Source: Candidatus Gastranaerophilales bacterium
GTDB lineage: Bacteria > Cyanobacteriota > Vampirovibrionia > Gastranaerophilales > Gastranaerophilaceae
Assembly (NCBI GenBank): GCA_944322785.1
Contig: CALUPW010000003.1
Span: 1-64,000 of the forward strand
DNA length: 64,000 nt
Direction of reading: 5' to 3'
Shown here piece by piece: positions 8,277 to 11,443 of this stretch (position 1 is its first letter; each line of letters opens with the position of its first letter). Below the pieces are notes generated by a model that worked only from the letters and a program-made list of their open reading frames with translations, made no database searches and was not told the DNA's origin. A program made the translations under genes and the position numbers.

Positions 8277-8990
8277 TTATTTCGGAAGATTTTTCCAGTA
8301 TCCAGCCTTTTCATTATCCGGATTCACGTCATAAAGCGCATACCAGGTACAGCCTATTCCGTTGCCTTTCTGTTTTGATTTTATGGAACATGGATTTCCC
8401 GCCTGCTCCATTGTGGCCGGTCTGTCTTCCAATTCTTTTAATTCTTCTTCTGTATATTGCTTATACATTTTTTTCGGTACCAGAATCCCCTGTTTATTAG
8501 TTTCAAAGTTAAAAATATCATGTCCCAACCTGTTTGGTTTTGCTCCCGAACCATTAATATCGACAGTTATATTTACGTTAGACGCATTAATTTGAACATT
8601 TACACAAGTACCGTCCGCAAGCATTTTTTCAGGCTGAGATGTACCTCTATCAAGAAATACATCATTTGTATTATTGTAATTTCTAACACCGTTCGGGTAC
8701 TTGCATTCACCTACTATTTTTAACCTTTTATAATATGCCTCCATAAATTCCTGCGCTCTCGGATAAACCTTATTAGCATTATCATAAGTTGCAAATTCCG
8801 CCTGCAAATTGTCTATGCCCATTTCATCTTTTACAAGCGCAAGAGCTTCGGAATGTCTTGAATAGGCTTTTTTTAATGCAGTATGCAGGTGCTTGTTCCG
8901 AATGTTGTTTATCATTGACGGCAGCGTCATCGCAGCGACTATACCGATTATGCCGAGGGTTATCAGAACTTCAGCAAGGGTGAAAGCGGC
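8277..8990 (-). CDS. type II/IV pseudopilin-like protein without a visible start codon
   Basis: An ATG-started reading gives 217 residues from 8930 (MTLPSMINNI). In the same frame upstream (8990 to 8931) the strand encodes AAFTLAEVLITLGIIGIVAA, the prepilin cleavage/methylation motif and hydrophobic helix. The real gene therefore extends further and ATG 8930 is internal. The frame stays open to a TAA at 9141-9143 but has no ATG, GTG or TTG. Instead it reads into palindromic repeat DNA, giving peptides such as FRHPELDSGS. The start may be a rare codon, or the 5' end may have been replaced by repeat DNA. One base upstream in another frame, ATG 9046 gives MLIETTYAA before a stop, so a one-base shift would repair it. 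The body is a typical pseudopilin: amphipathic helix (NKHLHTALKKAYSRHSEALALV), then a Cys-containing globular part. Family sure, integrity unsure. Confidence 0.75.
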   Translation of the reverse strand, partial: AAFTLAEVLITLGIIGIVAAMTLPSMINNIRNKHLHTALKKAYSRHSEALALVKDEMGIDNLQAEFATYDNANKVYPRAQEFMEAYYKRLKIVGECKYPNGVRNYNNTNDVFLDRGTSQPEKMLADGTCVNVQINASNVNITVDINGSGAKPNRLGHDIFNFETNKQGILVPKKMYKQYTEEELKELEDRPATMEQAGNPCSIKSKQKGNGIGCTWYALYDVNPDNEKAGYWKNLPK

Positions 8991-9052
8991 TTTGCAGGAC
9001 GTTTGGTCACTCTGGTCTATGCTGCGTAGGTTGTTTCTATAAGCATTGATAG

Positions 9053-9073
9053 ACCCTGAATCGAGTTCAGGGT
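9053..9073. repeat. palindromic repeat element (hairpin 1)
   Basis: ACCCTGAA / TTCAGGGT, an 8-bp perfect stem with a TCGAG loop, flanked by ATTGATAG and GACGG. It is one of a family of short dispersed palindromes here whose minus-strand reading resembles FRHPELDSGS. It lies inside the open frame upstream of the pilin. Confidence 0.75.
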
Positions 9074-9110
9074 GACGGAAAGAAGAATGTATTATTTTAC
9101 CACTTTCGTC

Positions 9111-9132
9111 ATTCCGGCCTCCGAGCCGGAAT
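9111..9132. repeat. palindromic repeat element (hairpin 2)
   Basis: ATTCCGGC / GCCGGAAT, an 8-bp perfect stem with loop CTCCGA. It has the same design as the elements at 9256-9277 and 45552-45573, which use ACTCCGGC / GCCGGAGT. Confidence 0.75.
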
Positions 9133-9198
9133 CTATTTCTTTATTTAGAGATTTTGAAACAAGTTCAGAATGACATATTGAATTAACGGCATTGATAG

Positions 9199-9218
9199 AC
9201 TCTGACTTTCGTCAGAGT
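9199..9218. repeat. palindromic repeat element (hairpin 3)
   Basis: ACTCTGAC / GTCAGAGT with a TTTC loop, preceded by ATTGATAG and followed by GACGG, as in hairpin 1. Related to 45600-45619 and 49782-49801, which use ATTCTGAC / GTCAGAAT. Confidence 0.75.
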
Positions 9219-9255
9219 GACGGAATGAGGGGCTTAGCATCCGGCTACTTTCGTC

Positions 9256-9277
9256 ACTCCGGCCCCCGAGCCGGAGT
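9256..9277. repeat. palindromic repeat element (hairpin 4)
   Basis: ACTCCGGC / GCCGGAGT with loop CCCCGA. The same 22-bp unit occurs at 45552-45573 with two loop changes. Confidence 0.8.
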
Positions 9278-9296
9278 CTGTTTTTATCAACATTGA

Positions 9297-9378
9297 TAGA
9301 TTCCGGATCACCAGGTAGGGGCATAAAATCTCGTTTCGACTCCCTCTCAACGGATTTTGCAGCCAGTACGGAATGACG
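9297..9378. repeat. 82-bp dispersed repeat, copy 1
   Basis: Runs from TAGATTCCGGATCACCAGG to CCAGTACGGAATGACG and matches 49579-49660 over 82 bases with four differences by my alignment. Its ends are ATTCCGG and CGGAAT, so it is a longer member of the same palindromic family with a 60-bp insert. It lies in the 3' part of the broken small gene at 9145-9538 (minus strand). Confidence 0.9.
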
Positions 9379-9608
9379 TTTCATTTTTTCGTAAAATTCT
9401 TCAAGACATGTATTTTTAAGAGGCTTTGGACTTAAATTGTCCTTGTCCTCTGAATGACCTAAGTCTAAACCGCAGCAGGAGCCTGTTTTACGGGTTGCCC
9501 CCCCCCCCCTGAAATTCAGTCATATCAATAGTTTTCACCTTATACCTCCTGTAAAAATTAATAACAACTCCTTTTATATTTTAAATGATTATCAAAATAA
9601 ATGCAACC

Positions 9609-9643: not shown

Positions 9644-11443
9644 ATGAGTAATAGAGTGAGCTTAACAACGCAAAACAGATTAATTGTATCAGGACTTATT
9701 TTAAGCACTGTTCTTATTGTGTTAATCGCAATTTTTGCAATCTTTAATATTCAAAAAAAACTTAATGACGGCTACAAAAGTTTCGGTCAGGTGATTTCAA
9801 AAATTCTGGCAATCGAAAGCATGGAAATTACAAGAGGATTAAACAGCGAAAAAACAAGAGAAACTTTAAAATCTCATTCCGACAGCATACTAAAAAGCCA
9901 CAATGATATTGTTTTGATTGAATTTAGAGATAAAAACGGAAATGTTATATATTCAGGTAAAAATGAAACTCTTAAAAACCCGAAACGTGCAAGCATAACT
10001 GTAACTTCCCCGCTTGAAATCTCAAATAAAAACGGTTCCGCTCAAATCGGCTCTGTTACGGTAGCTCTTTCAGGAAGTATCATAAATCAAATATCTTCAA
10101 CAACAAGAGCCTCTCTTTTGTTTGTTTTTACGATTGCATGGGTCGTTTTTGCCTTTGTAATCCTTATCAACACATATTTGATTACAAGAGAACTCAGAAT
10201 TTTGCAAACAGGTGTAAAAAAGATTTCAACAGGCGAATTCGGATACAAAATTGAAGATCAGGATGTTTCAACAGAAGTAAAAGAATTGTTTGATGAATTT
10301 AATGACATGTCAAACAGACTTCACCTTTATGAAGAACAAAATATTGAACAACTTACGCTTGAAAAAAATAAACTTGAAGCTGTTTTAATGAGTATAGCAA
10401 ACGGTGTTGTTGTATGTGACAACAATGATAAAGTCGTTCTTGTAAACAATCATGCACAAAAATTGCTTGAGGTAAACGAAGAAAAATTATTGAATACAGA
10501 AATTCAGCAGTATGTAGACACAGACGGCAATTTCTGTTTCAAAGATAAAATCGAGCAGTTTAAAGATACACCGCTTGAAATTATTGAATCAAAGCCGATT
10601 GATTTTAACATAACTGTTGATAAAAGAGTTATCAAATCTATAATTTCACCGATGTTTACAAGAAATAAGGATTATGTCGGATATATTATCGTACTGATAG
10701 ATGTAACCAAAGAAACTGAAATGGAACAAATGAGAACACATTTTATCTCAAACGTTTCTCATGAATTGAGGACACCTGTTACAGTTCTTAGAAGCTACAT
10801 TGATACTCTATACAACTACGGAAATGAATTTGACTATGAAACACAAAAAGAATTTATAGGTACAATCAATCAGGAAATTATCAGACTTAACCGTATGGTA
10901 AATGACATTCTTGATTTTTCAAAACTTGAGGCTGACGTAAAACTTGAAAAAGAGCCTGTAAATCTTGTTCGTTTAATTGAAGAATGCATAAATCAGGTTT
11001 CCGTGTTAACGCAGGAACACAACATAAAAGTCGAAGTTTCCAAAGATAATGAAATTCCTGATGTTGAACTTAATTATGACAGTATTGAACGTGCATTTAC
11101 AAATTATATGTCAAATGCAATAAAATATTCACCTGAAAACGGCACAATAAAAGTTAAAATATCAAATCACGGAAACTGCGAGGTTGAAGTTACGGTGACA
11201 GACGAAGGCTGCGGGATTTCGCCCGAGCATCAAAAAAAGATTTTTGACAGATTTTACAGAGTCGAAAATAACACGCATACGATAAAAGGCACCGGATTAG
11301 GCTTAAACCTTGTTAAAACAACTATTGAAAAACATCATGGCGGAAAAGTTTTTGTACAATCAGAAGAAGGCAAAGGCTCAACTTTCGGATTTATAATTCC
11401 TGTAAAAGCTGTTGAAACAACGGGTGAAATAACGCTTTGTTAA
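9644..11443 (+). CDS. membrane sensor histidine kinase (PhoR/WalK type)
   Basis: The 599-residue protein has TM1 at about 13-35, an extracytoplasmic sensor region to about 155, TM2 at about 157-180, a HAMP linker (about 180-232), a PAS domain (about 242-360), the HisKA dimerisation domain with phospho-acceptor H373 in SHELRTP, and a HATPase domain. The last shows an N-box with N491 (SNAIKYSPENG), DEGCGIS and GTGLGLNLV. The order matches PhoR/WalK-type kinases. No response regulator lies beside it, so it is an orphan in this window. The promoter leaves essentially no 5' untranslated region. The downstream exported unknown starts 15 nt later and is likely cotranscribed. Confidence 0.93.
   Translation: MSNRVSLTTQNRLIVSGLILSTVLIVLIAIFAIFNIQKKLNDGYKSFGQVISKILAIESMEITRGLNSEKTRETLKSHSDSILKSHNDIVLIEFRDKNGNVIYSGKNETLKNPKRASITVTSPLEISNKNGSAQIGSVTVALSGSIINQISSTTRASLLFVFTIAWVVFAFVILINTYLITRELRILQTGVKKISTGEFGYKIEDQDVSTEVKELFDEFNDMSNRLHLYEEQNIEQLTLEKNKLEAVLMSIANGVVVCDNNDKVVLVNNHAQKLLEVNEEKLLNTEIQQYVDTDGNFCFKDKIEQFKDTPLEIIESKPIDFNITVDKRVIKSIISPMFTRNKDYVGYIIVLIDVTKETEMEQMRTHFISNVSHELRTPVTVLRSYIDTLYNYGNEFDYETQKEFIGTINQEIIRLNRMVNDILDFSKLEADVKLEKEPVNLVRLIEECINQVSVLTQEHNIKVEVSKDNEIPDVELNYDSIERAFTNYMSNAIKYSPENGTIKVKISNHGNCEVEVTVTDEGCGISPEHQKKIFDRFYRVENNTHTIKGTGLGLNLVKTTIEKHHGGKVFVQSEEGKGSTFGFIIPVKAVETTGEITLC

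Follow-up and report, generated by a model that had tools for sequence, protein, structure and literature searches.

The locus studied here raises the question of which gene, if any, is controlled by a run of 12 G residues placed a few codons behind a start codon. The locus lies in a window of 64,000 nucleotides (the whole stretch of DNA that was analysed) from a Candidatus Gastranaerophilales genome of 1.95 Mb and 99.75% completeness, called G000 below. A sequence-only reading had described an AGGAGG Shine-Dalgarno (SD) site, a GTG start at 9538, the codons (M)KTIDMTEFQ and 12 G at 9498-9509, and these coordinates were confirmed on the minus strand (Table 1). Its statement on the frames was also borne out by translation. 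At 12 G the frame gives a short peptide of 16 aa (MKTIDMTEFQGGGGNP, stop TAA 9490-9488), and with one G fewer it gives an open frame of 130 aa that includes GSCCGLDLGHSEDKD and runs to TAA 9147-9145.

We consider it very likely that the tract marks a large gene family in gut Gastranaerophilales whose members encode phase-variable type IV prepilins, are OFF by default and are switched by slipped strands in the leader, and that the window copy is a degenerate member of this family. A typical member would consist of an SD, a start codon, a leader of about 8-12 codons, 9-13 G, a stop in the usual frame, a linker of roughly 10-250 codons, and the pilin (FTxAEVLITLGIIG...). With a tract of the default length, translation would be out of frame and would end a few codons past the tract, so that no pilin is made (OFF). 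A slip of one G during replication, presumably in growing cells, would bring the leader in frame with the pilin and allow its expression (ON), and the complete leader and linker would then be cut off by prepilin peptidase. Because both are cut off, their sequence would hardly matter if it stays open. Dozens of such independent and mostly OFF switches could give a population with many pilin combinations, and surface diversity may be their purpose.

Table 1 Features of the window copy (positions in the 64,000-nucleotide window)
Feature	Position	Strand	Basis
Shine-Dalgarno AGGAGG	9545..9550	-	Read from sequence
CAGGAG, complementary to CTCCTG 3' of the G tract	9551-9546	-	Read from sequence
GTG start (9538-9536) and leader codons (M)KTIDMTEFQ up to the tract	9510..9538	-	Sequence; sibling leaders alike
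12-G tract, sets the reading frame	9498..9509	-	Sequence; shuffle and genome counts
TAA closing the current-frame 16-aa peptide	9488..9490	-	Translation of frame states
GCTCC, complementary to the SD	9478..9482	-	Sequence; CTCC enrichment in sibling copies
Linker (GSCCGLDLGHSEDKD..., then palindromic-repeat sequence), open at one G fewer, ending at TAA 9147-9145 short of the pilin	9145..9497	-	Translation
Palindromic repeat-derived part of the linker	9037..9340	-	Sibling copies read the same repeats in frame as prepilin leader
Zone where leader frame and pilin frame have come apart	9141..9190	-	Translation at each tract length
Type IV pilin-like gene, 287-codon stop-to-stop frame	8277..9140	-	PF07963, TIGR02532

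The window copy

The window tract has exactly 12 G, the first of which completes a CAG codon, and it is followed on the minus strand by CAACCCGTAAAACAGGCTCCTGCTGCGG. Chance is ruled out as its origin by the shuffled windows (0.22 runs of 8 G expected per shuffled window), by the expectation from base composition, and by 39 homologous copies. The pilin downstream runs from 8277 to about 8999 on the minus strand, with its N_methyl motif FTLAEVLITLGIIGIVAAMTLP at 8925-8996. The gene is above the cut-offs of PF07963 and TIGR02532, which describe the N-terminal cleavage/methylation motif with Glu5 and the hydrophobic helix. Residue -1 of its cleavage site is Ala (KAA|FTLAE), and the pilins of the same genome that lack a tract mostly have Gly or Ala there. 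Near the N_methyl motif of the window pilin, we found no start preceded by an SD. A single-sequence structure model of this pilin had a pLDDT of 37 and was too poor for use or for a fold search.

The leader frame ends at 9145, before the pilin frame opens at 9140. Among the frame states translated, no tract length links the leader to its pilin. Thus, the window copy is a decayed, degenerate member of the family and is not itself a working switch; intact copies of the unit are present elsewhere in the G000 genome.

A repeated family in the same genome

Using a 161-base query, we found 39 matches of the 160-base unit in G000. These copies share a common plan, namely an SD, ATG or GTG, a leader, a G tract, and then CAACCCGTAAAACAGGCTCC and a linker. 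Two kinds of leader, METIDMT.FQ and M(V)KKQTMIEIQ, are found in about 36 sibling copies. In addition, about 45 runs of at least 9 G were seen in G000, compared with about 0.7 expected from base composition (9 or more G/C).

For 36 G000 tracts, translation began at the start codon behind the SD, and the tract was taken at its assembled length, with one G fewer and with one G more. In 27 of the 36, exactly one frame state remains free of stops as far as a type IV pilin N-terminus (FTLAEVLITLGIIG..., PF07963), which lies 24 to 273 codons from the start. Over the 3174 linker codons of these 27 copies there are 0 stops in the pilin frame and 142 and 318 in the other two, a zero that is partly by construction since the copies were chosen as linked; at 5-10% stops per codon, the probability that such linkers are open by chance is negligible. 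Two G000 loci have interrupted tracts. L037, interrupted as GGGGGAGGGG, is locked ON and has an intact ORF of 298 aa from leader through linker to pilin without any adjustment, and L030 is fixed out of frame (OFF).

There are 70 N_methyl matches in G000 in all. As a control, we examined 16 G000 pilins without a tract, and at least 14 of them start 4-9 aa before the motif behind their own SD. A start codon between tract and pilin is absent in 54 of the 74 tract-linked pilins outside G000, and in 4 of the 27 in G000. Furthermore, one match over the cut-off for prepilin peptidase (PF01478), the enzyme that would cleave such leaders, was found in G000.

The leader body and the palindromic repeats

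The body with Cys-Cys-Gly behind the tract had been read as a small peptide with a double-glycine leader, exported by an ABC transporter with a C39 peptidase. The two glycines do precede an acidic, Cys-containing stretch, as such a peptide would have. However, the glycines are the translated G tract. The siblings of the window copy have this body too, and there it runs on into the pilin and is no more than part of the leader of a type IV prepilin. Changes in the body at codon positions 1, 2 and 3 number 83, 83 and 88. The body is thus kept open and its amino acids are not conserved, because change is equal at the three positions, as expected of a leader that is cut off. Furthermore, Peptidase_C39 (PF03412) had 0 matches in the 99.75%-complete G000 in a search that was positive in 8 control genomes. 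Export by a double-glycine leader was rejected on these two grounds, and we give this explanation practically no weight.

Palindromic repeats (RHSxLDPESINADKNRLRLGGRSDE) fill the prepilin leaders of G000 in frame, and the leaders reach lengths of up to about 270 aa. In G008, a genome of the same genus, the leaders have about 22-89 aa. Palindromic repeats inserted in coding genes are known from Rickettsia as Rickettsia palindromic elements, and the G000 repeats resemble these in being read in frame within genes. However, the G000 repeats are packed into a prepilin leader that is predicted to be cut off and discarded.

Frame states and tract length

We compared frame states in G000, G008, G151, G034 and G155, which all belong to one GTDB family. 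At the assembled length, nearly all linked G000 copies are out of frame and meet a stop within about 16 codons: 24 of 27 are one G too long (+1), two are displaced the opposite way, and one is ON. The numbers of ON copies are 5 of 30 in G008, 1 of 10 in G151, 3 of 20 in G034, and 2 of 14 in G155. Pooled over the five genomes, 12 of 101 pilin-linked tracts are ON, which is below one third (p = 6e-7, a value that overstates the evidence since the copies are related). This share counts against phase variation with a random frame, for which one third would be expected. The default offset is +1 in G000 and G008, -1 in G034 (17 of 20 linked tracts) and G151, and mixed in G155. The frame that is neither the default nor the pilin frame typically meets a stop 4-11 codons past the tract.

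The tracts differ among relatives, and the genome collections hold one genome per species, so that comparisons are made across species or between paralogues. In G151, the loci L116 and L117 differ by a single substitution over about 150 nt that comprise SD, leader and pilin N-terminus, and one has 11 G (ON) and the other 10 G (OFF); their pilins diverge beyond this shared part. Among nine reciprocal-best pairs of G000 and G008 pilins, three differ in frame state, and two of these three are ON versus OFF. In G155, tracts of 9, 10 and 11 G occur.

It might be argued that the true tracts are in frame and that the assembler miscounts runs of G. Runs of a single base are prone to error, and most of the assemblies are MAGs, in which homopolymer lengths can be wrong. 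However, in G000 the length follows the preceding bases (CAG copies carry 12 G and CGG copies 13 G), so that the offset is kept and the length is not, and the offset is near-constant at tracts of 11, 12 or 13 G. The copies of G008 tend the same way; four of them depart from this, with a 12-G tract that follows AGG or CGG and is ON. Furthermore, the mostly OFF pattern also appears in independent genomes, and the default OFF frame repeatedly meets an immediate stop in sequences that differ. An assembly artefact is therefore very improbable.

Taken as a family, the copies have three marks of slipped-strand switching: the homopolymer lies near the 5' end, its length decides between a full ORF and an early stop, and this length varies among relatives. 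The second of these marks holds for the family (101 pilin-linked tracts in five genomes) and not for the window copy. The sequence-only reading had taken the window gene for a phase-variable surface or secreted gene. This holds insofar as a homopolymer in the start of an exported or surface gene sets its frame by its length, and fails insofar as the window copy was thought to switch.

The sequence behind the tract and possible programmed recoding

A CTCC motif lies within 30 nt 3' of the tract, directly after the default stop, in 33 of 36 G000 copies and 28 of 31 G008 copies, compared with a background of 2-6%. The predicted pairing of the SD with CTCC averages 0.84 in G000 and 0.78 in G008; with the remainder of the segment shuffled, the value is about 0.1. 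It is weak in G151 and G034 and absent in G155. A universal SD/anti-SD hairpin was rejected, since the pairing is strong in G000 and G008 only. The minimum-energy fold predicted for the window copy lacks this pairing. For G000 and G008, we regard the predicted hairpin as a lead.

Free slippage alone would not predict a near-uniform offset within a genome, and this counts against phase variation. It would mean either that selection acts against ON states and large changes in length, or that slippage proceeds more slowly than expected. Mainly because of this uniformity, we kept programmed recoding as a rival explanation. Under recoding, the offset in the DNA would be fixed, and some ribosomes (shifting +1 or -1 on GGG GGG) or RNA polymerases (by slippage) would restore the pilin frame, so that all pilins would be made at a low, set level. 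The offset, almost constant within a genome despite varied tract lengths and phases, fits recoding, and so does the default-frame stop, which lies 0-5 codons past the tract in nearly all copies of the five genomes. A conserved sequence past the tract, pairing with the SD in G000 and G008, also speaks for it. However, the sign of the offset is not kept across genera, ON copies occur in all five genomes, the interrupted tract of L037 leaves a fully open ORF, and recent duplicates are one G apart. Thus, we regard recoding as improbable.

Within the phase-variation explanation, a more specific form can be proposed tentatively. The dozens of loci may form a default-OFF repertoire whose genes are nearly all kept by selection at a distance of exactly one G from ON. 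The conserved stop past the tract, together with the SD/anti-SD hairpin beyond this stop in one genus, may keep OFF tight, and each cell would then show one or few pilins. We think this possible, and somewhat doubtful as a whole.

Distribution and comparison with known systems

We searched for the pattern of an SD, 20-50 bases and at least 9 G in the whole family, and 88 of 146 family genomes contain it, with dozens per genome in many genera. The tract-rich members carry roughly 27-97 tracts per genome. The pattern is near absent in 23 order- or class-level outgroups. Leaders vary from genus to genus and are common within one genome. The relatives with names are Candidatus Gastranaerophilales MAGs and Candidatus Scatousia. 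Loss of mismatch repair was rejected as the cause of the long tracts, since MutS is present in every tract-rich genome tested. In addition, a search of viral contigs for carriage by phages or mobile elements gave no match.

Among phase-variation systems based on poly-G, the large ones known best are those of mucosal pathogens, for example Neisseria, Campylobacter and Helicobacter. In the opa genes of Neisseria, the repeat lies in the signal-peptide region. There are 4-12 opa loci, with 7-21 CTTCT repeats (PMC5953494). The pilin family would be comparable in principle to Opa as a phase-variable repertoire: both are multi-copy families of surface proteins in which an intragenic repeat would switch each locus independently. 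However, the Gastranaerophilales family has poly-G tracts, type IV pilin-like proteins, many more tracts in its tract-rich members and a default that is strongly OFF. The poly-G or poly-C tracts of 9-20 in neisserial pilC, lgtA and pglA also lie inside reading frames, and pilC affects pili (PMC5953494). The main neisserial pilin varies by pilE/pilS recombination, with poly-G mostly in accessory genes and repeats in 23 of 607 pilS alleles (PMC5953494), whereas in the Gastranaerophilales family the tract lies in the prepilin leader of dozens of pilin genes.

The genes pilA, pilB, pilC, pilT and pilD have been reported in a termite-gut member of the Gastranaerophilales/Melainabacteria (PMC5877343). 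In the literature searched, which did not extend to subscription journals and preprints, we found no paper joining Gastranaerophilales with phase variation. Neisseria genomes have 15-19 poly-G tracts on average (PMC5953494), and many genera of this uncultured gut family on the cyanobacterial branch would have more poly-G switches per genome than that. Many of the family's putative switches are on pilus-subunit genes. Pili are typical targets of immune recognition and of phages. Therefore, the switches would provide this common group of commensals with a source of surface diversity that can be tested. In addition, standard annotation misses or truncates these pilin genes, because most of them are out of frame in the deposited genomes.

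Other tract-bearing genes

A few tracts belong to surface-related genes other than pilins. In G000, L031 (C3, 7399-7656 and 6437-7435) has a 12-G tract and the same CAACCCGTAAAACAGCTCC tail inside an Acyl_transf_3 gene, which is out of frame as assembled. Thus, the module of tract and tail is also found in a non-pilin gene. A poly-G leader that is in frame as assembled precedes a GT8 glycosyltransferase at L039:1556-2545 (PF01501, E 2.6e-45) and a gene with a weak NodZ match at L182:1799-2896. These two loci suggest that surface-glycan genes share the poly-G switch.

Two further G000 tracts are L203 (C2, 2056-2829), with 13 G in the middle of a gene that is in frame as assembled and has no Pfam match, and L202 (C1:318500-321300), with 15 G and no evident leader or pilin nearby. 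In another genome (G004 C8:23255-25297), three similar tracts of G9-G12 lie within 2 kb, preceded by ..CCCCGAACC(C/T)TGC and followed by CTGNTAGTTGCTGATTTTTTCAG. This is another kind of tract-bearing repeat and not a pilin leader.

Finally, a histidine kinase gene adjoins the poly-G gene in divergent orientation in the window (9644-11443, plus strand), and likewise at L149, L172, L181 and L182 in several genera. The poly-G gene beside the kinase is pilin-like or glycosyltransferase-like, and this site seems to be a repeated position for switch genes.
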